Shown here: positions 1,032 to 25,976 of the stretch, one piece after another
Layout of the letters: every line of letters begins with the position of its first letter
Position numbering within the stretch: the first letter of the stretch is position 1
IMG/VR virus record: IMGVR_UViG_3300035698_002494
Span: 1-25,976 of that record
Length of the DNA stretch: 25,976 nucleotides
Reading direction: 5' to 3' (one strand)
From: a virus
The notes under the pieces: generated by a model
Told to the model about the DNA's origin: nothing
Seen by the model: only the letters and a program-made list of their open reading frames with translations
The model's database searches: none
Program-made: the position numbers and the translations under genes

Positions 1032-1889
1032 ATGTCAAAGATTAAAGTAGCTGAGTTATTCTATTCTATCCAGGGTGAGGGTAGATATATGGGCGTTCCC
1101 TCAGTGTTCCTTCGTACGTTTGGATGTAACTTCAAGTGCGCGGGGTTTGGTATGCCACGTGGTGAGCTTAGCACAGAAGCCGATGAAGTAGCACATACTC
1201 ATAAAAAGATTGAAACCTTTTTAAAGTATGAAGATTTGCCGTTAGTAAGTACAGGGTGTGATAGTTATGCATCATGGCATCCTGACTTTAAAGATCTAAG
1301 CCCTATGTTGACAAGCGATGCCATTGCTGATCGTATAGCTGAAATCTTACCCTTTAAAGTATGGGGTGATGAGCATCTAGTAATTACAGGTGGTGAACCT
1401 TTGTTAGGATGGCAACGTGCTTACCCTGACTTATTAAGTCATCTTAAAATGTATGGTCTTAAAGAAATTACATTCGAAACAAATGGTACGCAAAAGTTAA
1501 CTGAGGACTTTAGACGTTACTTAGGAGAGTGGACAGCCGAATGGTGGGATAGAGAAATAACATTTTCAGTGAGTGCAAAATTGCCATGTTCTGGTGAAGC
1601 GTGGGTTGATGCTATCAGACCAGATGTTGTATGCGAATATGAACAGGTCGGTACTACATACTTGAAGTTTGTTATCGCCACGGAACAGGATTTTGCAGAT
1701 GCAGTGATTGCCACACAGGAATATCGTGAGGCTGGATTTAAAGGTCATGTGTATTTAATGCCTGTAGGTGGCGTAGAAAGCGTTTACGTATTAAACAGTC
1801 GTAACGTAGCAGATATGGCAATGAAACATGGTCTACGGTATAGTGATCGACTTCAAATTCCCTTATTTTCCAACGCATGGGGTACATAA
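1032..1889 (+). CDS. queE: QueE-like 7-carboxy-7-deazaguanine synthase (radical SAM)
   Basis: QueE converts 6-carboxytetrahydropterin to 7-carboxy-7-deazaguanine (CDG), using S-adenosylmethionine and a [4Fe-4S] cluster. The 285-residue protein has the QueE N-terminal signature SIQGEGRYMGVPSVFLRTFGC (residues 12-32) and the radical-SAM GGEP motif (120-123). The expected compact cysteine cluster is unusual: C32 and C36 form CxxxC, but the next position is Phe (CAGF) and the third cysteine appears only at C76, in GCDSYASW, which resembles the usual CDTxxAW. About 37 residues therefore appear inserted inside the cluster-binding loop. Start chosen at the ATG behind AAAGGATGA. First gene of the deazaguanine cluster. 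Assignment is strong at family level; activity with the split motif is inferred. Confidence 0.88.
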   Translation: MSKIKVAELFYSIQGEGRYMGVPSVFLRTFGCNFKCAGFGMPRGELSTEADEVAHTHKKIETFLKYEDLPLVSTGCDSYASWHPDFKDLSPMLTSDAIADRIAEILPFKVWGDEHLVITGGEPLLGWQRAYPDLLSHLKMYGLKEITFETNGTQKLTEDFRRYLGEWTAEWWDREITFSVSAKLPCSGEAWVDAIRPDVVCEYEQVGTTYLKFVIATEQDFADAVIATQEYREAGFKGHVYLMPVGGVESVYVLNSRNVADMAMKHGLRYSDRLQIPLFSNAWGT

Positions 1890-1928
1890 TGACACTCACG
1901 CTAGCCGAATAATGATTAAGGAAATGTG

Positions 1929-2375
1929 ATGGAAGATAAACTATATTACACTTGGGAATATATACACCGACTGTCCCTTGATGTAGCTGATGCTATAATA
2001 AAAGACCATACCGACTTTAGCTACATTGCTGCTGTATCAAGAGGTGGACTAATTCCGGGTGTGTTGTTAAGCCACTACATGGATCTACCTCTTGTACCCA
2101 TTGAATGGTCTACTCGGGATCATCAACAACAAACTCACTACCTCACAATAAACGAGGATATTGCTGCTGGTAAAAAAATCCTTCTTGTTGATGACATCAA
2201 CGACACTGGAAGAACCTTTGTTGAGCTTTTACAGGATTGGGAATATAATCCAGAGGGTGGTAATGTGATTACAGCTTCTGTTTTTCAACGTAGTACCACA
2301 CAACAACCATCAAATTACTATGCAAAGCTCCTCAACACTAATGATTGGGTAGTTTTTCCTTGGGAGAAGAAATGA
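1929..2375 (+). CDS. Phosphoribosyltransferase (hypoxanthine/xanthine-PRTase-like)
   Basis: Type I phosphoribosyltransferase fold of 148 residues. The PRPP-binding loop VDDINDTGRT (residues 87-96) is intact, and an upstream SRGG (37-40) matches the PPi-binding loop of purine PRTases. Such enzymes join a purine base to PRPP, but the substrate cannot be read from sequence. A GTG three bases earlier is in frame, yet AAGGAA at 1918-1923 is correctly spaced only for the ATG at 1929. The stop overlaps the queD start (ATGA). Its position between queE and queD suggests it acts on a purine or deazapurine base, or feeds GTP for FolE; that is inference. It could equally be a general purine-salvage gene. 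Confidence 0.8.
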   Translation: MEDKLYYTWEYIHRLSLDVADAIIKDHTDFSYIAAVSRGGLIPGVLLSHYMDLPLVPIEWSTRDHQQQTHYLTINEDIAAGKKILLVDDINDTGRTFVELLQDWEYNPEGGNVITASVFQRSTTQQPSNYYAKLLNTNDWVVFPWEKK

Positions 2376-2872
2376 TACAACCTATAGCATATAAATACAC
2401 TTCAACAAAAGAATACATTGATGCCTTTCCTGTTGCCTATAGACAATGGAAAGCTGACAGCCATTGCAACCTGATTCATGGATATTCTTTTAGTATGAAG
2501 TTCTACTTCGGCACTAATGACCTGGATGTCCGTAACTGGGCAGCTGACTATGGTGGTCTCAAAGAATTAAAAAACATCCTTCAAGATCAGTTTGATCATA
2601 CGTTACTTGTAGCTGAAGATGACCCTGAGTTAGAAACATATAAGTTGTTAGAATCAAAGAAGATGGCTAAACTAACTGTGATTCCTAAGCTAGGGTGTGA
2701 GAGTTTGGCTGATATGCTCTATCGATTTGTCAATGGAGTGTATATTCCCGACTATTGGGGTCCAGGTGAGGCCAGTCGTCTTTGGTGTTATCGTGTAGAA
2801 GTACGTGAGACCCAGAGTAACATGGCTTGGCGAGAAGGACATCGCGAATGGGCAGAGAACTTGTTGGATTAA
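2372..2872 (+). CDS. queD: QueD-like 6-carboxytetrahydropterin synthase homologue
   Basis: Member of the PTPS/QueD T-fold family, 166 residues. QueD makes 6-carboxy-5,6,7,8-tetrahydropterin from dihydroneopterin triphosphate, the FolE product. The catalytic-cysteine/zinc region reads HCNLIHGYSF (31-40): the Cys and the first His of Cx3HGH are kept, but the second His is Tyr38. The usual FxAAH zinc histidine reads FPVAY (19-23), again with Tyr. The following DYGGLKELKNILQDQFDHTLL (59-79) matches the family's D(F/Y)xxLK...LDHxxL segment, and E110 fits the conserved C-terminal Glu. The ATG overlaps the upstream stop; a longer in-frame start at 2345 lies inside the PRTase gene and is rejected. 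Family is clear; zinc binding and activity need testing. Confidence 0.82.
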   Translation: MIQPIAYKYTSTKEYIDAFPVAYRQWKADSHCNLIHGYSFSMKFYFGTNDLDVRNWAADYGGLKELKNILQDQFDHTLLVAEDDPELETYKLLESKKMAKLTVIPKLGCESLADMLYRFVNGVYIPDYWGPGEASRLWCYRVEVRETQSNMAWREGHREWAENLLD

Positions 2873-2881
2873 GGAAAAATA

Positions 2882-3076
2882 ATGTTTAAATGGGTAGCCG
2901 ATGGTATATATGATGATCAATCAGTACTTACCAGATATGAGATGAACGCAGGTAAGCCTCGAACTGTAATTAGTAAGATGTGGATAGATGCAGGAGGACC
3001 TGAGGATATTGATCCTAAGTTTAAACTTCCTTGGGGCACGTATCCAGATATGCCTCAAAAACTAAAGAAGCTCTAA
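2882..3076 (+). CDS. Small hypothetical protein, 64 aa
   Basis: A 64-residue frame with a good ribosome-binding site (AAGGAAAA, ending just before the ATG) lies 9 bases after queD and before the folE leader. The product is soluble-looking, rich in Trp, Asp and Pro, with a C-terminal basic tail (PQKLKKL). No family is recognised. Spacing and direction fit co-transcription with queD. Its last codons overlap TCTAAATA (3072-3079). Confidence 0.65.
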   Translation: MFKWVADGIYDDQSVLTRYEMNAGKPRTVISKMWIDAGGPEDIDPKFKLPWGTYPDMPQKLKKL

Positions 3077-3188
3077 ATAGTAAAGCAACAAAGTTATCCG
3101 ATGGTTGCACCGTTAGGTTTTTCATCGGCAAGAGCTGACAGCCCTTCTTTCCTTTTGCTGTCGTTAAATTAACTCGAAGGAGAATTGC
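3077..3188 (+). promoter_or_regulatory. Structured folE leader with SD-complementary loop
   Basis: This 112-base gap holds two perfect 6-bp hairpins. The first is CCGATG (3098-3103) with CATCGG (3123-3128), with a possible inner ACC/GGT helix (3109-3111 with 3116-3118). The second is GACAGC (3137-3142) with GCTGTC (3157-3162), with a 14-nt polypyrimidine loop. That loop contains CCTTC (3143-3147), exactly complementary to GAAGG (3176-3180) in the folE Shine-Dalgarno sequence. This suggests translational control of folE by occlusion of its SD. I cannot match it to a known riboswitch class; THF and preQ1 classes would make metabolic sense. Confidence 0.45.
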
Positions 3189-3857
3189 ATGTCTAAAAAT
3201 CACCCTCAACTTGGTGAAGAAGTAAACGCCCATCTGACGTCTCTTGGAATCAATACACCAACGACCGACAAGGTCCTTGCTGATCGTAATGAAAAGATTC
3301 AAAAGATTGCAGCTCTAACAGCTGAAATGCTTGAAGTACTTGGCCTGGATATTGCCGATGACTCATTAGAAGAAACACCACTGCGTGTTGCTAAGATGTA
3401 CGTTGATGAGATCTTCTCTGGTCTTCGTACTGATACATTTCCTAAATGTACAACTGTGGAAAATAAGTTTTGCCAGGGTGACGAGTTTGTTCTCGAAAAG
3501 AACATTACTTTATACTCTGATTGTGAGCATCACTTACGTCCAATTATTGGTAAAGCTCACATTGCTTATATTCCCGGTAAACGTGTGTTAGGGTTATCAA
3601 AGCTCAATCGCATTACACAGTATTTCGCTCAACGGCCTCAAGTACAAGAACGATTGAACCAACAAATTGCACATGCAATTGCTTTTATTACAGAGTCACA
3701 GCATGTGATGGTTGTGATTGAAGCAGCTCATACTTGTGTTTCACAGCGTGGCATTAAAGATACAAATAGTTCTACAGTGACTGCAACGTGTCTAGGTATG
3801 TTTGGTGTAACTAACTCTGCTCTTCGTAAAGAAGTAATGAGCAACATCAACCGATAA
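3189..3857 (+). CDS. folE: GTP cyclohydrolase I
   Basis: FolE converts GTP to 7,8-dihydroneopterin triphosphate, the first step shared by folate and 7-deazaguanine synthesis. The 222-residue length is the same as E. coli FolE. Zinc ligands are visible as C112 and H115 in the SDCEHHLRP segment and C183 in AAHTCVSQRG; H114 and H181 fit the catalytic histidines. The GLSKLNRITQYFAQRPQVQE region (135-154) is almost identical to the E. coli type. Preceded by a strong AAGGAG-type site. It supplies the QueD substrate, so it fits the queE-queD-dpdA cluster; phage folate supply is the alternative role. Its leader suggests separate translational control. Confidence 0.96.
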   Translation: MSKNHPQLGEEVNAHLTSLGINTPTTDKVLADRNEKIQKIAALTAEMLEVLGLDIADDSLEETPLRVAKMYVDEIFSGLRTDTFPKCTTVENKFCQGDEFVLEKNITLYSDCEHHLRPIIGKAHIAYIPGKRVLGLSKLNRITQYFAQRPQVQERLNQQIAHAIAFITESQHVMVVIEAAHTCVSQRGIKDTNSSTVTATCLGMFGVTNSALRKEVMSNINR

Positions 3858-6214: not shown

Positions 6215-6757
6215 ATGAAACATATTATGGGAAAAGGTTCGACATCATCCCTCAGTAACGTACAAGAGGGTGACATTCAACCTAATGCTACAGATCTTCG
6301 GTTGGATAGAGTATTTAAAATCAATACACAGTTGTTTACGTTATGTAACGATCTTAAAGACCATCGTGGTAGTGTTGAGATCCAGCCTGATACCGAGTCT
6401 TACTTTAACCTTACAGAAGGACACTACGAGGTTGTGATGGAGAATACCATCAGCGTTGGAGAGGGTGAAGCAGGGTGGGTAATTACTCGTTCAACTCTAA
6501 ATCGTAACGGGTTGTTCTTGACATCAGGTCTTTATGATTCTGGATATTCAGGACCGATGATGGCAGTATTACACGTTAACTGTGGTGCTGCTAGGATTAA
6601 AAAAGGAACTCGTGTTGGTCAGTATATAAGTTTCGACGCAGAGATGCTTCATGCTTACGACGGATCGTATGGGTTCGATCGATCTGGTCAACCTAAACCT
6701 GAGCATCAGAAGTTGTATGGTATCGGTAAATCACATGATCAAAAGTATGGAGCTTAA
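6215..6757 (+). CDS. dUTPase/dCTP-deaminase superfamily protein
   Basis: 180-residue member of the trimeric dUTPase/DCD fold. The IQPNATDLRL stretch (21-30) is the dCTP-deaminase signature, and RSTLNRNGL (92-100), LYDSGYSG (106-113) and KGTRVGQYISF (130-140) are the RSSLxxxGL, (I)DxGYxG and PGxRIGQ motifs. D108 fits the water-activating Asp of dUTPases. The catalytic Glu of dCTP deaminases, expected ten residues after this Asp, is Val118. dUTP hydrolysis is thus more likely than dCTP deamination. A strong AAAGGAGA site sets the start. It lies directly before the clamp gene (2-base gap), so nucleotide-pool and replication genes are co-expressed. Confidence 0.82.
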   Translation: MKHIMGKGSTSSLSNVQEGDIQPNATDLRLDRVFKINTQLFTLCNDLKDHRGSVEIQPDTESYFNLTEGHYEVVMENTISVGEGEAGWVITRSTLNRNGLFLTSGLYDSGYSGPMMAVLHVNCGAARIKKGTRVGQYISFDAEMLHAYDGSYGFDRSGQPKPEHQKLYGIGKSHDQKYGA

Positions 6758-6759
6758 TA

Positions 6760-7422
6760 ATGAATCTATCTAAACAAACAATCGCTTTATTTAAAAACTT
6801 TGCAGGCATCAATAGTAACCTATCGATCAAAGCTGGTAACAAACTCACAACTGTATCTGCAGGTAAGAACATCGTGGCACAAGCTGATATTACTGAGATG
6901 TTCCCTGTTGACTTTGGTATTTACGATCTCAATGAATTCTTGGGTGCGATGTCATTGTTTGACAACCCTAACCTGGAGTTTGATTCAAAGTGTGTAACAA
7001 TTAAAGAAGGAAAGAACAGTGTTAAATACTATGGTGCTAATCAATCTATACTTACTCCTGTTCCCAATATTAAGCAGTTCCCCGAACCTGATATTGAGTT
7101 TGACTTATCTAGTTCAATGTTGGTGCAGATTCTACGGGTATCCTCGATTCTCCACGTACCCGACTTCTCTTTAGTTGGTAACGGTTCAACTATTACAGTT
7201 GCCGTTACTGATAAATCTAACCCAACAGGTAACACATTTGAGTCTGAACTTGGGTTGTCTGATAAAGAGTTTAAAGTCAACTTCAAAGTAGAAAACCTCA
7301 AGATGATCAATAGTGATTACCGAGTTTCGATTGGTGGAAAGAAGATCAGTAGGTTTCAATCAACATCTCAGCAATTAACTTACTATGCTGCAATTGAAGT
7401 TGACTCCACGTTTAGTTTCTGA
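6760..7422 (+). CDS. 45: Sliding clamp, DNA polymerase processivity factor (gp45)
   Basis: 220 residues, against 228 for T4 gp45. It opens with the T4-type MNLSKQTIALFKNFAGINSNL and keeps the FPVDFGIYDLNEFLGAMSLF (49-68) and YYGANQSIL (90-98) segments typical of gp45. The C-terminus ends in a YYAAIEVDSTFSF strand. The clamp is a trimeric ring loaded by gp44/62 that tethers gp43; in T4 it is also the activator of late transcription. First gene of the 45-44-x-62-regA array. A strong promoter lies across its 3' end (7400-7428). Confidence 0.95.
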   Translation: MNLSKQTIALFKNFAGINSNLSIKAGNKLTTVSAGKNIVAQADITEMFPVDFGIYDLNEFLGAMSLFDNPNLEFDSKCVTIKEGKNSVKYYGANQSILTPVPNIKQFPEPDIEFDLSSSMLVQILRVSSILHVPDFSLVGNGSTITVAVTDKSNPTGNTFESELGLSDKEFKVNFKVENLKMINSDYRVSIGGKKISRFQSTSQQLTYYAAIEVDSTFSF

Positions 7423-18959: not shown

Positions 18960-19517
18960 ATGGCTATTGAAGTAACGCCCCTACAAAGAAAAAACATACA
19001 AGAACGCACGGTCGTTTATAATCCAACATACGTTAACGGTATGACAGAAAACGATGCAAAGGGGTCGTACGTATGCTTTTATATTTTAACAGAATCGCCC
19101 AACAAGGTCACTGCTTATGACGGACGGTCATGTGTAGTAACGCATTTAAATAAAGTGGCAAGATCCAAGCAATTTTCATTTATTAAGATAGGAAACTTCT
19201 CGAGTGGATCAAAAAGTAGATGGGAAAGCAACAAAAGCGATTTGATTAAGAATGATGGCAATCGATCTCCTGCAGCTAGATACAGCCAGGATATTCTCAT
19301 TGAATATCCTAATTTGTATTTGCACTTTATATTAGTCGTGGTATCTCCTGATACAGTTGAAAAGAATTTAGAGCAGGCATTACGGGGTACAGTTGTGGTG
19401 GATAATAAAGCAGATAAAATAACTGCTCCTCCTGGAAGATGGAGAACTCCAATTTCTCTATCTAATACTGCTACCCTTGCTAAGAAAATAAGTGACAAAA
19501 TCACATCTAAACTATGA
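18960..19517 (+). CDS. Hypothetical protein, 185 aa; weak GIY-YIG resemblance
   Basis: 185 residues, basic. Two segments faintly recall GIY-YIG/T5orf172-like proteins: YVCFYIL (37-43) and FSFIKIGNFSSGSKSRWESN (72-91), followed by EKNLEQAL as a possible acidic helix. The match is too weak for an assignment. The C-terminal part (KITAPPGRWRTPIS, then a basic helix) suggests nucleic-acid contact. It is the first gene after the late-like promoter box and overlaps the following HAD gene, so it belongs with the late-looking block. Unlike its neighbours it has no capsid-targeting-like N-terminus. Confidence 0.7.
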   Translation: MAIEVTPLQRKNIQERTVVYNPTYVNGMTENDAKGSYVCFYILTESPNKVTAYDGRSCVVTHLNKVARSKQFSFIKIGNFSSGSKSRWESNKSDLIKNDGNRSPAARYSQDILIEYPNLYLHFILVVVSPDTVEKNLEQALRGTVVVDNKADKITAPPGRWRTPISLSNTATLAKKISDKITSKL

Positions 19518-20149
19518 TGAGATCGTTCTCAGAATACCTTAGCGAACAGGCTACCTTTAATGACGGTAGCCTGACCATCTTTGATATTGATGAAACTTTA
19601 TTCCATACAACAGCTCAGATTGCTGTTAAGAAGGGTGGCAAGGTTGTTAAAAGTTTGTCCAATTCTGAGTTTAACACTTATATGTTAACGCCTGGAGAGT
19701 CGTTTGATTTTTCTGAGTTCCGTTCTGCTGATAAGTTTGCAGAATCTAAGCCAATTGGTAGAATGATTGAGAAGGCCAAAGCAATTTCAAAAGGGATTGC
19801 TCAAAAGCCGCTTTCACGAGTTATCATTCTTACGGCAAGAGCAGACTTTGACAACAAAGAGAAGTTTCTAGACGTGTTCCGTAATCACGGACTCGACATG
19901 AGCAAGATCCGAGTCGAACGAGCAGGTAACATTCTCAGTGACCATGACGTTGCCACAAAGAAATATATGATCATATACAACTACCTAAATACTAGGCAGT
20001 TCTCTAAAGTAAGACTATTTGATGATAGTATGGAAAACCTAAAAGTATTTTTGAAGTTGAGTGCAAGGTTTCCAACAGTAAAATTTGAGGCGTACTATGC
20101 TAAGCCTGATGGCTCAATAAAAACAATTAAGGAGAGGTTTAAATGTTAG
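19517..20149 (+). CDS. HAD-superfamily phosphatase with capsid-targeting-like N-terminus
   Basis: 210 residues. The HAD motif I is FDIDET (22-27; D23 nucleophile, D25 acid), motif II is ILTAR (serine/threonine position T), and a C-terminal LFDDSMEN provides the acidic motif IV; a lysine for motif III may lie in KKYMII. Size and motifs fit phage HAD phosphatases (polynucleotide 3'-phosphatase or nucleotidase type), substrate unknown. The first ten residues MRSFSEYLSE match the T4 capsid-targeting pattern with a gp21-like (L/I)xE site. Two ATGs are adjacent (19514, 19517); the second aligns the N-terminus exactly with that of its neighbours and is preferred. Confidence 0.82.
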   Translation: MRSFSEYLSEQATFNDGSLTIFDIDETLFHTTAQIAVKKGGKVVKSLSNSEFNTYMLTPGESFDFSEFRSADKFAESKPIGRMIEKAKAISKGIAQKPLSRVIILTARADFDNKEKFLDVFRNHGLDMSKIRVERAGNILSDHDVATKKYMIIYNYLNTRQFSKVRLFDDSMENLKVFLKLSARFPTVKFEAYYAKPDGSIKTIKERFKC

Positions 20150-21108
20150 GATTTTCAAGTTTTCTTATTGAAGGGGGTAATGTGTTTAAAGGACAGACAT
20201 CATCCATTGCTCTTGAGGACATTGAACCTACTCTAAATGCATACTTCGCTGAGCTAAAAAAGGTATTCCCTAAAAAAGCTAGTATATTCAACATGCAGCA
20301 TTTTCATCCCCTTGGTTCAGTTGGTAAGAAACCATTGTCAGGTGACATCGACTTGGGGATAGATGCTAAAGACCTACTCGACAGAGAAATGTCTCCCAAA
20401 GCAATGGCTATGTGGAACATCGATCACGCAAAAGTCCAAGAAGAATTCTTGAAGCTATCAAAGAGAGCTAAAACAGCTTTGCCTGAACAGTTAATGATGA
20501 AGGCATTTCTCAAACTGCTCACTCAATACATCAATCAGAAGGCTCCAAATCTACACACTGATGAGGCTAAGGTATCTGCTGGAAACATCTTTGGGGTGTA
20601 TCCTCAAATTGATAAGACAGGTAAAAAGTTAGGAACTGGCGTTCAAATCGATTGGATGGTTGGCGATCTGCAATGGTTGAAGTTCTCTTACTATTCGGCT
20701 GCCTATCCGGCAGGGTCGAATGTTAAGGGATTGCATCGTACACAACTCATGCTATCTGCTTTTCAGCAAGCTAACTTGTCGTTTAATCATGTATCCGGAG
20801 TCAAGGATAAAGATACTGGCAAGCTAATTGCGACAGATCCTACACGATCTCTAAAAGAATTATCGTTTCGTTTAGGTGTACCTCTTAACACCTCTGTGAC
20901 AGAAGATTACTACAAACTGCACGCTCAGCTTAAAAAGCACATGAAGCCTACAGATTACTCAGGGATGATTGATACTTACTTTAAAATTCTAGACCGTACC
21001 AGAGCAGATATACCTGACGACCTTCAAGCTGAATGGAAAAAACGTAAAACGCGATTGGGGCTGACAGGCAAGTTCTTACCCGATAACTCTAAACTGAAAG
21101 GCATGTAA
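20143..21108 (+). CDS. Pol-beta-fold nucleotidyltransferase, capsid-targeting-like N-terminus
   Basis: 321 residues. The nucleotidyltransferase signature is present: GS (58-59), then SGDIDLGID with D68 and D70, and a third carboxylate D170 in VQIDWMVG. A long helical C-terminal region follows. This superfamily moves NMPs onto nucleic acids, proteins or small molecules; the substrate is unknown. The N-terminus MLGFSSFLIE(GG) fits the capsid-targeting pattern with an LIE cleavage site. Start behind AAGGAGAGG, overlapping the HAD gene by seven bases. It has a divergent neighbour of the same fold immediately downstream, so the two may form a pair. Confidence 0.8.
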   Translation: MLGFSSFLIEGGNVFKGQTSSIALEDIEPTLNAYFAELKKVFPKKASIFNMQHFHPLGSVGKKPLSGDIDLGIDAKDLLDREMSPKAMAMWNIDHAKVQEEFLKLSKRAKTALPEQLMMKAFLKLLTQYINQKAPNLHTDEAKVSAGNIFGVYPQIDKTGKKLGTGVQIDWMVGDLQWLKFSYYSAAYPAGSNVKGLHRTQLMLSAFQQANLSFNHVSGVKDKDTGKLIATDPTRSLKELSFRLGVPLNTSVTEDYYKLHAQLKKHMKPTDYSGMIDTYFKILDRTRADIPDDLQAEWKKRKTRLGLTGKFLPDNSKLKGM

Positions 21109-22013
21109 TGTCTGGTTCAACAGGTGCTGATAGAATTAAAAGTAGAGAACACTTTAAACAGTTCTTGGTAAGCTATGAAAAAATAATGAAGAAGTATCCT
21201 GGGTTTGTATCAATCAAACCATCGGGCAGTTACAACTCTGATATGACTAAGGAAAGCTTTGGAGATATTGATCTTATCACCCATATCAAGTCGGACAAAG
21301 ATAAGGCAACAGTAAAGAAAGAACTTGCTGATTGGCTTGCCAAACTACCAGACTCAACTATTGTTCCTTTTAGATCAGAAAGATATAAAGGCAAGAAGTT
21401 TTTAAATACTGGTGAGATTGTTACGATTCGCTATCATGATCCAATTCTCGATTACAGTGTGCAGATCGACAACATCATTGCATTGGATCATACTGAAGCA
21501 CAGTTTAAAGGTGACTTCTTAGATATGCCAGCTGAACAGCAGGGTTTGGTATTGGGATTGGTTAAAGTAGCATCGATTGAAACTGAACCCTCTGTCTTAT
21601 TCAAGAAAATGGGTATCCGAGCACCTGCAGAGCTACCTAAAGATACAGAGTATGAATTCAACTTATCTAGCGTTGAATTACAACTGCGTAAGGTCACGTA
21701 CGAACCAGGTACATATAAACAAAAGAGTAGAGAGATTATTTGGAAGTCGCGTAACTTCAAAGACCTTGAAAAGTTACTGTACCAATACAACCTATCGTTA
21801 CCTTTCGATAAGTTACTTGCTCAGGCCAAATCAAAACTAAAGTCTAATCGCAGCGGTCAACGAATCAGTGGTGTGTTTAGGTCCATGGTGTCGGTCAAGT
21901 CTGGTGAAGTGGGCACTGACAAGGCCAAAGGTAAAGAAACAGCAATTCGTAAGATCAAACAAGCCTTTGGTGAAAACTTTCTAACCTTTGGCGATTACAT
22001 GAGAGATTCATGA
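21108..22013 (+). CDS. Second pol-beta-fold nucleotidyltransferase
   Basis: 301 residues. Motif GS (40-41), FGDIDL with D53 and D55, and third carboxylate D121 in VQIDNIIA reproduce the catalytic triad of nucleotidyltransferases. It shows the same layout as the previous gene (GS, DxD, QID), but the sequences are clearly divergent. The C-terminal half is very basic (KSREIIWKSRNFK, KSKLKSNRSGQR), consistent with nucleic-acid binding. No capsid-targeting-like N-terminus (MSGSTGADRIKS). It shares one base with the upstream stop. Substrate unknown; tRNA, DNA end or protein modification are all possible. Confidence 0.8.
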   Translation: MSGSTGADRIKSREHFKQFLVSYEKIMKKYPGFVSIKPSGSYNSDMTKESFGDIDLITHIKSDKDKATVKKELADWLAKLPDSTIVPFRSERYKGKKFLNTGEIVTIRYHDPILDYSVQIDNIIALDHTEAQFKGDFLDMPAEQQGLVLGLVKVASIETEPSVLFKKMGIRAPAELPKDTEYEFNLSSVELQLRKVTYEPGTYKQKSREIIWKSRNFKDLEKLLYQYNLSLPFDKLLAQAKSKLKSNRSGQRISGVFRSMVSVKSGEVGTDKAKGKETAIRKIKQAFGENFLTFGDYMRDS

Positions 22014-22042
22014 GTTGCGTGGTTTGGCGAGAGGTATACTGA

Positions 22043-22050
22043 CATAAATA
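22043..22050 (+). promoter_or_regulatory. Late-promoter-like box CATAAATA
   Basis: CATAAATA at 22043-22050 (7 of 8 positions of the T4 late box) lies in a 69-base gap, 32 bases before the ATG at 22083. That is exactly the box-to-start distance of the box at 18920 and its gene. Confidence 0.5.
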
Positions 22051-22082
22051 ACTAATAATACAACTTTATATAGATGGATTAA

Positions 22083-22886
22083 ATGAAAAAATACCGACAG
22101 TTGGTAGAATCCCTACCTTCCAAGACAGTCGTGCTTGCTTTTGGCAGATTTAATCCTCCAACAACTGGGCATGAACTAATTGTCCGTTTCGTCAAAAAAC
22201 TAGCTCAGCAATCTCGTGCTGACTACGTCATCTATGCATCTCGTACACAGGATAAGAAAAAGAATCCTCTCACACTAGATCGCAAACTCCACTATTTAAA
22301 CTTAATGTTCCCTAACACCAACTTCAAGAGTGCTAATGATCAAGAGCGCACCTTCATGGAAGCTGCTGCAGCTCTCAATAAGAAATATAAACACCTGATT
22401 ATGGTTGCTGGTTCTGATCGTGTCAACTCTTATAGAGAAACTCTTGAAAAGTATAATGGTGTAGATTACAACTTTGATAGCATTCAAGTCATAACAGCTG
22501 GCGAACGAGATCCAGATGCTGATGATGCATCTGGAATGACATCCTCTAAAATGAGATCAGCAGCAGTTAAGGGTGATTTCATCGAGTTTAAAAAAGGACT
22601 TCCTTCAAGAGTCAGAATGATAGATGCAAAGCGTCTAATGAATGACGTTAGGGAGGGTCTTGGACATGACGTAATTAAAGAACAAGTAAAACTCGTCGTT
22701 GACTCAATACGGGAAAGGTACTTCCGTAAAGAAATATACAATGTCGGTGATATTGTAGAGTCGATCAGTGGTGAGTCCTTTGAAATAGTAAAAAGGGGAA
22801 CAAATCACCTACTGGTTAAAGACGTTCAAGGGGTAGTACACAACAAATGGATAAACGAAGTATTCGAGGAAGCATCGAATGTTTAA
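22083..22886 (+). CDS. NadM-like nicotinamide-nucleotide adenylyltransferase fold protein
   Basis: 267 residues. The cytidylyltransferase-like fold is shown by FGRFNPPTTGH (20-30, the HxGH equivalent TTGH) and GMTSSKMR (151-158, the ISSTxxR equivalent). These motifs bind ATP in NMN/nicotinate-mononucleotide adenylyltransferases, so NAD synthesis or a related nucleotidyl transfer is likely. From about 218 there is a separate small domain, NVGDIVESIS...VKRGTNHLLVKD...HNKWINEV, an SH3-like barrel module I recognise from other phage late proteins. The N-terminus MKKYRQLVE(SL) fits the capsid-targeting pattern (T4: MKTYQEFIAE). A late-type box lies 32 bases upstream. Confidence 0.82.
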   Translation: MKKYRQLVESLPSKTVVLAFGRFNPPTTGHELIVRFVKKLAQQSRADYVIYASRTQDKKKNPLTLDRKLHYLNLMFPNTNFKSANDQERTFMEAAAALNKKYKHLIMVAGSDRVNSYRETLEKYNGVDYNFDSIQVITAGERDPDADDASGMTSSKMRSAAVKGDFIEFKKGLPSRVRMIDAKRLMNDVREGLGHDVIKEQVKLVVDSIRERYFRKEIYNVGDIVESISGESFEIVKRGTNHLLVKDVQGVVHNKWINEVFEEASNV

Positions 22887-24411
22887 TTTCAAACGCTATT
22901 ATACAACAATCAATGAGTCCACGATTAGATCAAAAGACTTTCCTAAGGTAGCCAGTGCTGTTACTCGGTACATGAGAAAACACGTCGGAAAGACATACTA
23001 CTATCCTACTCAAGAAGTGTTCACCTCAGGTGGTAAGGTAGGAGTGGGTGCTAGATTCTTTTTTGTTGGTAACAGATCCATTCGACTCAATTGGGTGAGG
23101 TCGATCGACAGCTCGCTTGGATTAGTTTCAATGGATTACTGGGATGGTATGAAAGCTGGTGCCAAACCAACACAACATATCACTTTCAATAGACAACAGT
23201 CATTAGTTAAAATTCTTCCCTTCATTAAAGACTTTATGTTAGGGCTTGTTCATACGTCCGGCGTCTTTGTGAACGAGGACATTGAGTCGGATGCTGAAAG
23301 TTTTTTAGCTGAAGCAGTATACACGCCTGATATTATTCTAAAGACCATTAGTAATACACTCAATGGATTGAAGATGGGTATTCAAATCCGTCAACAATCC
23401 TTAGAAGGTGGTAATAAAAAGTATGGTCCTAAGTGGAATGATGTTCAACGCATCATTCGTGAAATGTATCCTAATCTGTTTAATGCAAGACCCGGAAATA
23501 AACAACTCATCATTGATAAAGATGATGTAGAGAAGATTGATCCTAAAGCAATATTAGCTAAGGTAGTTGGGTCATCTGACAGCGTTGAGTTTACTGTATC
23601 TGCTGGCCGTCCTGAAACATATGAAGTAGAAGGTGTATCAGAGAGCGAAATTGACCGGATGACATACGAAGAGCAGCTCGATGCTCTAAAGACTGGTATG
23701 AGACTACTAATGTCTAATGCGACCAATGCTCTTTTCCTTGGTGGAAGAGGTGGTACTGGCAAGACTCAAACTGTGGAAGATATGCTACATGATGCTGGTA
23801 AGCGTGATGGAGAAGGATTCTTTAAGATTACTGGATCAGCTACCCCAACAGGGATCTATAGAATCCTTTTTAATCACCGCAAAGATATTATCCTATTTGA
23901 TGACTCTGACTCGGCTCTTAATGATCAAGAAGGACGTAACTTATTTAAAGCTGCATCAGACACTAAAAAAGTCAGAAAGATTAGTTGGATGAGAGGGGGC
24001 AAACAATTTGTTGACCCAGACGATTACGATGACGAAGCAGATAACGAGGATGTACTTCCGAGGTCATTTGAGTTCACAGGTAAGATTATTTTTATATCCA
24101 ATATGCCTTTGAACAAACTTGATCCTGACGGTGCCTTGCGTACTCGTGGATATGTTATCACCATTGACCCAACCAATGAAGAAATTTACAGCTTCATGGA
24201 AAAGATTGTTGACAAGATTCCATTGGATGTCAACTATACTTTATCAAAAGAAGATCGTATTGAAGTTGTTGAGGTGATTAAAGCGCGTAGAATTCCAAGT
24301 AAGACAGCTAACCTAAGAACTCTTGTTCGCGGTTTGAATACAAGAGCAGGAGTTGAGCAACAAGGCGGCTCAACTGAAGAGTGGAAGAAATTTGTTAAGA
24401 TGTTTGCATAA
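22879..24411 (+). CDS. AAA+ ATPase with capsid-targeting-like N-terminus
   Basis: 510 residues. The ATPase core is at about 275-440: Walker A GGRGGTGKT (288-296), Walker B DIILFDDSD (336-344), sensor-1 IIFISNMP (403-410) and RTRGYV (421-426) as arginine-finger region. The first 150 residues form a separate domain with no recognised family. The N-terminus is MFNFKRYYTTINE(ST), compatible with capsid targeting, and SFLAE(AVY) at 141-145 is a close match to the T4 gp21 cleavage site (FIAE/A), suggesting release of a ~365-residue ATPase. Substrate unknown: DNA remodelling or protein unfolding are possible. The start overlaps the previous gene by eight bases. Confidence 0.82.
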   Translation: MFNFKRYYTTINESTIRSKDFPKVASAVTRYMRKHVGKTYYYPTQEVFTSGGKVGVGARFFFVGNRSIRLNWVRSIDSSLGLVSMDYWDGMKAGAKPTQHITFNRQQSLVKILPFIKDFMLGLVHTSGVFVNEDIESDAESFLAEAVYTPDIILKTISNTLNGLKMGIQIRQQSLEGGNKKYGPKWNDVQRIIREMYPNLFNARPGNKQLIIDKDDVEKIDPKAILAKVVGSSDSVEFTVSAGRPETYEVEGVSESEIDRMTYEEQLDALKTGMRLLMSNATNALFLGGRGGTGKTQTVEDMLHDAGKRDGEGFFKITGSATPTGIYRILFNHRKDIILFDDSDSALNDQEGRNLFKAASDTKKVRKISWMRGGKQFVDPDDYDDEADNEDVLPRSFEFTGKIIFISNMPLNKLDPDGALRTRGYVITIDPTNEEIYSFMEKIVDKIPLDVNYTLSKEDRIEVVEVIKARRIPSKTANLRTLVRGLNTRAGVEQQGGSTEEWKKFVKMFA

Positions 24412-24424
24412 ACAAGGAAGAATA

Positions 24425-25852
24425 ATGAGTAATCAAGAACACTTACAAGAATCAGCGGCTACATCTTTTAACCAAAAGGTTAAACAGGCCCGTGTAGCCC
24501 ATGAAGCTGGTAATCATAAAAGAGCAAAGATGCATTTAGACGTGGCCCGTGAATCCATGTTGAGTGTAAGGTCTACAGACATGGGTAAGATTCAAAGTGC
24601 ATATAAAGATTACACAGAATTGCGTAAGCTGCATGAATCTGCGATTAAAGAAGATCTAACAAACAAAACAATCCGTCCCACTGATAAGATCAAAGTGGCT
24701 CGGGTTATTGCCGATATGCTTGGTGTTGACAAGGTTGAGTCGATGACTCCTGAAGCTGCTATCAACATGGGGTTGCGTAAGATTAAGAACAAACGTATGA
24801 CACCTGAACTTATCGGTGTACTACAAAAAATGCTCAATTTAGCTCAAGAAGTGGGTGTAAAGGTTGATATGTCTTTGATGCCAGCTTCAATGAAAGAAGA
24901 GATTCATGAGTCTGAAAAAGTTGACACAGATTCGAACTATAATGCAGCTAAAGGAATTCTTCGTATTAAAGACTTCAACAAGCTAAACAAAGTTGGTCAT
25001 GGTATTGTATCTCCTGCTGATGATCAACAAGATCGTCACATGAAGGTTAAATACAAGACTGAAGATATGGCGTCTGCAGATTACAAAGTCAATCCTGAGA
25101 CAGGACGTAAGTTTCGTGCTCATAAAATCGAATTTGCCAACAGCAGATCAAGAGGTAAACCCGGTGAAGATAATAAAGATGTGCAAGAGCAGTCCGTCGA
25201 TTATGACACCGGAGCTCGTAAAGAAAAAATGGCTAAGCAAACTGATAAAGCTAATTTAATATTACGTCATTCAAAAGAACGTGAAGCTCTGGCAACTCAG
25301 CATGACAATCAAAAGAAAGCCATGTCGGAAGAAGACGAGTATTCTGACTTTGAGATTTTAGATCTGTCAGACGATGAGTTAGATGCACTTGTTAATCAAG
25401 CTAACTTTGATGATTTGATTGATGTTGCCGACGACGATGAGGTAGTTATTGTTGATCCAGATACTGGAGAAGAAATAGATGACATGCCAGTTAATGAGGA
25501 AATGTTAGCTGAAGTGTTGTCGAGATCAGAAAGGATGAAAGCTCGCATTAGGTTTATGAGGACATCTGCAAAACGTCAACGCAAAATGCAAATTGCAATG
25601 AAGAGACGTGCTGATCCTAAAACATTAATAAAAAGAGCACGACGTATGGCAATCAAGCTTCTCAAGCAAAAGATTATGAAGAAACCTGTAGGCAAACTGT
25701 CTGTGGCTGAAAAGGAACGAGCTGAACGTATGATCAGTCAACGCAAAGCTTTAATTGGTCGTCTTGCTTTGAGACTTGTTCCAAAGCTAAGAAGGATGGA
25801 ATCAGATCGATTATTGGGTGTTAAAGCAATATCACCAGGAATAACAGTATAA
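24425..25852 (+). CDS. Acidic-basic bipartite protein, probable internal head/virion protein
   Basis: 475 residues in distinct blocks: a helical N-terminal part (1-165), a linker rich in charged residues, a strongly acidic stretch (302-360, EEDEYSDFEILDLSDDELD and DVADDDEVVIVDPDTGEEID), then a very basic C-terminus (364-461, repeats of SAKRQRKMQIAMKRR, KRARRMAIKLLKQK, RMISQRKALIGRLALR). A candidate gp21-type site EMLAE(VLS) at 359-363 falls exactly on the acidic/basic boundary, and HLQE(S) lies at 6-9. The basic domain would bind packaged DNA, as T4 internal proteins do. The start is at the ATG behind AAGGAAGAATA; a longer in-frame start at 24353 overlaps the ATPase. No enzymatic motif. Virion role is inferred. 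Confidence 0.75.
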   Translation: MSNQEHLQESAATSFNQKVKQARVAHEAGNHKRAKMHLDVARESMLSVRSTDMGKIQSAYKDYTELRKLHESAIKEDLTNKTIRPTDKIKVARVIADMLGVDKVESMTPEAAINMGLRKIKNKRMTPELIGVLQKMLNLAQEVGVKVDMSLMPASMKEEIHESEKVDTDSNYNAAKGILRIKDFNKLNKVGHGIVSPADDQQDRHMKVKYKTEDMASADYKVNPETGRKFRAHKIEFANSRSRGKPGEDNKDVQEQSVDYDTGARKEKMAKQTDKANLILRHSKEREALATQHDNQKKAMSEEDEYSDFEILDLSDDELDALVNQANFDDLIDVADDDEVVIVDPDTGEEIDDMPVNEEMLAEVLSRSERMKARIRFMRTSAKRQRKMQIAMKRRADPKTLIKRARRMAIKLLKQKIMKKPVGKLSVAEKERAERMISQRKALIGRLALRLVPKLRRMESDRLLGVKAISPGITV

Positions 25853-25976
25853 TGATCTCTTTTAGCCAATTCTTAGAAAAAGTTGAAGATCCTTGTTGGG
25901 ACGGATACAAGCAACTTGGAATGAAGAAAAAGAAAGGTGTAGAAGTACCTAACTGTATACCAGAAGAAGATCAAGC
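25852..25976 (+). CDS. N-terminus of a phage protein with CWDGYKQ module, 3'-truncated by window
   Basis: The frame starts at an ATG sharing one base with the previous stop (TAATG) and stays open to the window end (41 codons). It reads MISFSQFLEKVE followed by DPCWDGYKQLGMKKKKG and VEVPNCIP. The second part is a short module that I know from many phage late and virion proteins, where it usually occurs as a tail segment. The first twelve residues again fit the capsid-targeting pattern seen in upstream genes (FLE or KVE as possible cleavage site). The full length and function cannot be determined here. Confidence 0.75.
   Translation, partial: MISFSQFLEKVEDPCWDGYKQLGMKKKKGVEVPNCIPEEDQ

Follow-up and report, generated by a model that had tools for sequence, protein, structure and literature searches.

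The T4 internal proteins IPI, IPII, and IPIII carry the N-terminal leader MKTYQEFIAE. Mutagenesis of IPIII traced targeting largely to residues 4 and 7 and processing to residues 8 and 10, and Asp at position 10 stops processing but not targeting (PMC9026906). In T4-like cyanophages, earlier papers described an NMNAT/cytidylyltransferase as an unexplained virion protein, and the authors of the S-CREM2 (PMC10665884) and S-SCSM1 (PMC9602691) studies left undecided whether the enzymes are carried by the particle or co-purify with it. We found no link between this virion protein and the targeting sequence in the open-access literature, subscription journals being outside the search.

Here we analyzed a 25,976-base fragment with 35 genes from an IMG/VR virus record (hereafter, the window, meaning the whole stretch), whose gene order, together with PHROG matches to a clamp loader, DNA polymerase, UvsX, and a gp41-type helicase, assigns it to a marine T4-like myovirus. 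A block of enzyme genes (19517–25976) sits after the helicase region. Our analysis suggests that this block probably encodes head-packaged, gp21-processed enzyme cargo delivered to the next host, for which we infer the cleavage, ejection, catalysis, and role.

The enzyme block and its N-termini

The site of the block is occupied by a cytidylyltransferase gene and its neighbors in S-SM1, S-SZBM1, HTVC008M, and Melnitz as well. A contig 98–99% identical to the window (G001) runs 21 kb beyond the window end. Since genes were called with a simple purpose-made caller, some start codons may be wrong; since the window is a 26-kb fragment devoid of head genes, its own gp21 is out of view. Elsewhere in the window (1032–3857), consecutive genes for QueE-like, phosphoribosyltransferase, QueD-like, and GTP cyclohydrolase I proteins represent the 7-deazaguanine pathway, suggesting modified DNA.

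All genes of the block lie on the plus strand. The first (19517–20149) encodes a HAD-fold phosphatase with the DxDxT motif FDIDETL and a weak match to PHROG 415 (polynucleotide kinase, E = 6e-5); its canonical leader, MRSFSEYLSE (19517–19546), predicts a cut before Q11. A subgroup of HAD homologues (L331–L340, L346, L349, and L351) keeps F..F[IVL] with Gly in place of Glu (MKKINRFKNFIGSGTLTIFD) and is perhaps targeted and unprocessed. The second gene (20143–21108) encodes nucleotidyltransferase 1, of the Pol-beta/Pol X fold with the motif GSVGKKPLSGDIDLGID, which begins with MLGFSSFLIE (20143–20172) and has a predicted cut before G11. Nucleotidyltransferase 2 (21108–22013) is leaderless and begins M/SGSTGADR (here and below, a slash marks a predicted cut or the equivalent position), its start overlapping the stop of nucleotidyltransferase 1 (TAATG). 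Searches of Pfam, NCBIfam, and the PDB returned no enzyme name for the HAD protein or the nucleotidyltransferases; the name of the latter comes from the fold search only (Pol X/TUTase fold, Foldseek E = 5e-5), with the G[SG]..DxD motif kept.

The next gene (22083–22886) encodes a NadM-like protein of the cytidylyltransferase family (PF01467, E = 1.5e-6; phrog_3041, E = 2.5e-67). Its leader, MKKYRQLVE (22083–22109), is one residue short, with Glu at position 9 and a predicted cut before S10. Among the profiles, the superfamily PF01467 alone exceeded its cut-off; the NadM and NadR equivalog scores stayed below the curated cut-offs (TIGR00482, 20.4 bits against 112; TIGR01526, 16.6 against 341), and its designation as a proven NMN adenylyltransferase was therefore dropped. 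An AAA-type ATPase related to T4 NrdC.10 follows (22879–24411), with the leader MFNFKRYYTTINE (22879–22917) and Glu at position 13; its structure model was unusable (mean pLDDT 63). A 475-residue protein (24425–25852; phrog_23027, E = 9e-7) begins with MSNQEHLQE/S (leader, 24425–24451). The last gene (25852–25976) starts with MISFSQFLEKVE, which ends without (L/I)xE.

The preliminary description of this locus had presented five N-termini, all of which we recovered at their positions, as fitting the T4 leader or a slightly longer form of it. The fit is exact for MRSFSEYLSE and MLGFSSFLIE. The remaining three deviate from it in the window: the LxE is one residue early in the NadM-like protein, the leader is longer in the ATPase, and the 25852 protein has apparently lost its site of processing. 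Their relatives nevertheless bear canonical or near-canonical leaders, namely MKKYRQLVKE, MKNYKQFIKE, and MIDFLSFLKE for the NadM-like protein, MPLNFRSFLQE for the ATPase, and MLSFKEYLKE/ and MISFKEYLRE/ for the 25852 protein. The count of five carriers among seven genes had overlooked a sixth, the 24425 gene, whose relatives start with MKSFKETIKE/ or MKSFKQTINE/, and the protein called truncated is cut by the end of the record only, being whole (128 residues) in G001 at 6430–6816.

Residue by residue, the aromatic positions 4 and 7 are exact in the HAD protein and nucleotidyltransferase 1, are represented by an aromatic residue and Leu in the NadM-like protein, by F4/Y7 in the ATPase, and by F4/F7 (together with L8) in the 25852 protein, and are absent from the 24425 protein and nucleotidyltransferase 2. 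A leader end of the (L/I)xE type is present in the HAD protein, nucleotidyltransferase 1, the NadM-like protein, the ATPase, and the 24425 protein; it is absent from the 25852 protein (FLEKVE) and present in the relatives of the latter.

Frequency and conservation of the leaders

A strict pattern, M..[FY]..[FYLIVM][LIVM].E, was fixed from the T4 mutagenesis (positions 4, 7, 8, and 10), and its occurrence at internal Met residues (12 of 19,759) served as the chance estimate. The window contains two matches in its 35 genes compared with 0.02 expected (P about 2e-4). The first survey, of 15 contigs, gave 19 matches compared with about 1 expected; the form used in the preliminary description, M..[FY]..[FYL][LIVY].E, also gave 19, compared with 0.4–0.5 expected. 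In a wider set of loci, 76 of 4,741 genes were tagged (2–3 expected), a sample enriched by picking loci for homology to the carriers; counts in whole-genome isolates are therefore the cleaner test. Whole phage genomes yielded 0–3 strict matches each. A relaxed motif with variable spacing was dropped as stand-alone evidence (120 seen, about 70 expected): it also matched replication genes, namely DNA ligase and a small gene of the replication region, and the "slightly longer form" by itself is accordingly not discriminating.

The residues constrained in the leaders are those mapped in T4. A set of 80 cyanophage cytidylyltransferases has 21 different N-termini, in all of which M1, F4, F7, L8, and E10 are invariant; of the ten positions, variability is highest at the spacer position 9, and the codons of F4 and F7 vary synonymously. 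HAD homologues provide 10 further canonical leaders; in 11 distinct HAD leaders, selected for canonical length, F4, F/Y7, L/I8, and E10 are kept and positions 2, 3, 5, 6, and 9 vary. The conserved domain of nucleotidyltransferase 1 begins with GGN[VI]F, and its homologues either start M/GGN or carry varied leaders, of which ten distinct contexts all end in (L/I/V)xE/GG; given the Glu, the probability of L/I/V/M in all ten by chance is about 1e-6. Leaderless homologues also occur (MGGNVF and MSKTLVFAFGR). In the AAA homologues, (I/L)(N/T)E stays at a constant place and the preceding sequence varies. Across these homologues, the leaders act as separate, selected modules that are swapped or lost while the enzyme domain stays constant.

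The N-termini might instead be a shared peptide of some other role, such as membrane contact, uncleaved scaffold docking, or a translation initiation context, unrelated to gp21. Codon use is indeed nearly fixed at some leader positions, and some family members possess F..F without the Glu. Such a role would account poorly for the fixation of Glu at position 10, for the recurrence of LxE at domain boundaries within proteins, where it cannot serve as a start context, or for the fact that the pattern picks out T4 IPII and IPIII; we regard it as very unlikely.

Fusion proteins and internal LxE junctions

Nucleotidyltransferases 1 and 2 form a single protein in several relatives, with the junctions HLGE/SGSTGADR, NMTE/SGVAGADR, and KLTE/SGVAGASR. 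The window nucleotidyltransferase 2 starts precisely at the residue after the junction Glu; the start of this domain thus reads (L/M)xE/SG in the fusions and M/SG in the stand-alone form. Nucleotidyltransferase 2 is fused to the NadM-like protein in one contig (G010) and in Flavobacterium phage immuto. Elsewhere, a metallopeptidase-like or GNAT-like domain, both named by motif reading with no database match, precedes nucleotidyltransferase 1 and ends in VSE/, VME/, or IME/. In another contig (G004), the NadM-like protein is joined to a 24425-type protein via ..NFKQFAE/DIQPG, so that the leader is retained inside the fusion; the stand-alone 24425-type proteins start MKSFKETIKE/DVKPG and MKSFKQTINE/DIQPG. 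The AlphaFold model of the fused nucleotidyltransferase pair (mean pLDDT 84) has low confidence at residues 1–12 and 326–332, which cover both predicted cuts, as well as at one internal loop and the C-terminus.

These junctions suggest that some of the cargo may be synthesized as polyproteins of several domains that are cleaved at LxE sites within the chain, and that nucleotidyltransferase 2 may be a fragment separated at a site of this kind. The window domains themselves are separate genes, and no window polypeptide combines at least two unrelated effector domains, the mark of the polyvalent type.

Protease and head gene context

The gp21 protease (S77 family, PF03420) is encoded in 9 of 21 relative contigs, some of which also encode a leader-bearing nucleotidyltransferase. 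It was found in all nine T4-like isolates of one survey and in S-CREM2, S-SZBM1, and S-SCSM1, and it is absent from N4, SPO1, and S-CBWM1. The processing site of gp23 keeps the LxE in marine relatives, as in T4. AAA homologues with 61–65% identity to that of the window lie directly downstream of gp21-gp22-gp23 (gp22 and gp23 were named by reading the translations), with other tagged genes alongside. In addition, the head gene cluster of relatives contains a tagged Acb1 (anti-CBASS; L379:8323–8829 and L381:3991–4497; PF23474, E = 7e-14; PDB 7t26, E = 8e-7), with the leaders MKSFKSYLTE and MKSFKTYLTE, respectively. A remote Acb1-like relative, L391, has no leader and begins close to the residue that follows the predicted cut.

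Proteins of the DUF6267 family (PF19782, E = 1e-102; L007:2796–4028, L331:5555–6724, and relatives) also have canonical leaders. Some of them contain a KWDG motif resembling that of ligase-type nucleotidyltransferases, and in S-PM2 the family is fused to NMNAT with the leader absent.

The head context raises the possibility that packaging and processing prepare the tagged proteins for work inside the head, as core or scaffold partners or as factors for DNA ends or packaging, and that the host never receives them. This would suit the AAA homologues in the head operon behind gp23 and several tagged proteins that are small and devoid of recognizable enzyme domains. We consider it improbable: no function in an assembled head is obvious for SAM hydrolase, kinase, Acb1, or NMNAT, and tagged T4 proteins do get delivered (PMC9026906).

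Published virion proteomes

In T4, the strict pattern matches 3 of 258 genes, encoding IPII, IPIII, and gp61.1. The last (AF158101 18966–19130; L386) is a 54-residue protein annotated only as hypothetical, which begins with the perfect pattern MKTFKEFIKE/D and is a possible unrecognized internal protein; tagged 54-residue proteins are also found in G006 and G007. The single match in S-SM1 (185 genes) is the cytidylyltransferase, a relative of the window NadM-like protein, which was detected by mass spectrometry in purified virions as T4-GC190 (Sullivan et al. 2010, PMC3037559). The only match in Syn9 (186 genes) and one of the two in P-SSM2 belong to the same family. N4 and SPO1, both devoid of gp21, gave zero matches. 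HTVC008M, S-PM2, and G008 also gave zero; the code is therefore not universal or has looser forms.

In S-CREM2, exactly 3 of 192 called genes match, and all encode enzymes: a SAM hydrolase (MKDFDSFLEE), a kinase (MKRFDAFLTE, with a GTG start), and a cytidylyltransferase (MKNFSSFLTE). These are the three "regulatory" proteins of its virion proteome (PMC10665884); Fisher's test of the strict matches against all detected proteins gave P = 0.018. The NMNAT of S-SCSM1 has the leader MKSFLQFLKE and is present in virions (PMC9602691). The cytidylyltransferase of S-SZBM1, also present in virions, starts one residue short with MRFRQFIIE, and neither of the two strict-pattern proteins of this phage is among the 30 virion proteins detected (PMC9146016), which we counted against the idea. 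When S-SM1, S-CREM2, and S-SZBM1 were pooled, four of six strict matches were detected (P = 0.017), a modest link. In all, the NadM-like family has been reported in the virions of four T4-like cyanophages: S-SM1, S-SZBM1, S-CREM2, and S-SCSM1.

The detection in virions might instead reflect contamination by abundant cytosolic proteins, with a coincidental likeness of the motif; the S-CREM2 and S-SCSM1 authors themselves brought up contamination. Contamination would not single out the three S-CREM2 proteins that bear the tag, and coincidence would not give the excess of tagged genes described above, which was counted in a homologue-enriched sample. We therefore hold this explanation to be the least credible of all, and favor packaging of the tagged enzymes.

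Some features of these proteomes were noted separately. The Cas9-like gp12 of S-CREM2 was left uncounted because its RFASFMAE/A lies 17 residues in, behind a CTG codon. Unrelated cargo enzymes of S-CREM2 (OR473000 7704–10313 and 10579–12846) share a module of about 35 residues behind the leader (..LGL..DGHGxYxD..TGxxVAxT..GxLxFY..), which is also seen in the cytidylyltransferases of P-SSM2, S-SCSM1, and S-SM1; read by eye in the translations, it is perhaps a second packaging element. S-SZBM1 (OL473597; L414) has adjacent genes for small hypothetical proteins that start with MKSFKSFLSE (122311–122628) and MKTFKQYITE (122628–123125).

Discussion

The head packaging and processing put forward in the preliminary description are well supported by comparison: the pattern, the turnover of leaders, the LxE junctions, the gp21 of relatives, and tagged orthologues in virions all point the same way, with virion presence taken only from published work on orthologues. 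We propose that every precursor has a capsid-targeting sequence of the T4 type, that its aromatic positions 4 and 7 would bind the prohead core, and that gp21 would cut at L/I-x-E (positions 8–10), freeing the enzyme in the head. On infection, the DNA would bring with it into the cell the two nucleotidyltransferases, the NadM-like protein, the HAD protein, and the AAA ATPase. Nucleotides, NAD, or RNA ends would be their immediate targets, probably in the service of host takeover or counter-defence.

Because the tag is common to enzymes detected in cyanophage particles, these phages probably carry ready-made enzymes, including Acb1 in relatives, into the next host. The SAM hydrolase, kinase, and Acb1 that bear the tag in relatives make early host takeover or counter-defence the likeliest role of the cargo. 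Refilling of NAD during infection is another plausible guess on general grounds. More tentatively, marine and freshwater T4-like phages may use one N-terminal code to preload their heads with enzymes for counter-defence and nucleotide chemistry that can replace one another, some of them as polyproteins cut by the protease and Acb1 among them, although we would not yet bet on this generalization. If it is true, Acb1 would be delivered ready-made and immunity would be blocked before any phage gene expression; the leader code suggests that preloading is open to counter-defence enzymes, Acb1 among them. The leader also offers a mechanism for the question of the two proteome studies, whether virion NMNAT and other enzymes are cargo or contaminants. 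A ten-residue code can be searched for in any T4-like genome and would predict virion-delivered proteins, including T4 gp61.1.

Among known systems, the closest are IPI, IPII, and IPIII of T4, with which the block shares a ten-residue N-terminal leader (aromatic at 4 and 7, aliphatic at 8, and Glu at 10), constraints at the positions mapped by T4 mutagenesis, and a gp21-type protease in the relatives of the window. In contrast to the T4 proteins, the cargo here consists of enzymes and multi-domain polyproteins, several per genome and beside replication genes, and the leaders differ among themselves in both sequence and length. T4 Alt is likewise a head-packaged enzyme active at the start of infection, packaging being a prediction in our case; however, no ADP-ribosyltransferase domain was recognized in the block, and Alt is outside the strict-pattern matches of T4. 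The polyvalent proteins (Iyer et al. 2017, PMC5512222) resemble the block in their shuffled enzyme domains and proposed injection with DNA, but release here is apparently by the prohead protease of the phage at LxE instead of a built-in metallopeptidase, and the domains are also found as separately tagged genes. The virion NMNAT/cytidylyltransferases of S-SM1, S-SZBM1, S-CREM2, and S-SCSM1 belong to the same family as the window NadM-like protein, with a canonical leader in three of the four and one residue fewer in the fourth. The block thus appears to extend the T4 internal proteins to enzymes and polyproteins, as a well-supported but unproven cargo system.
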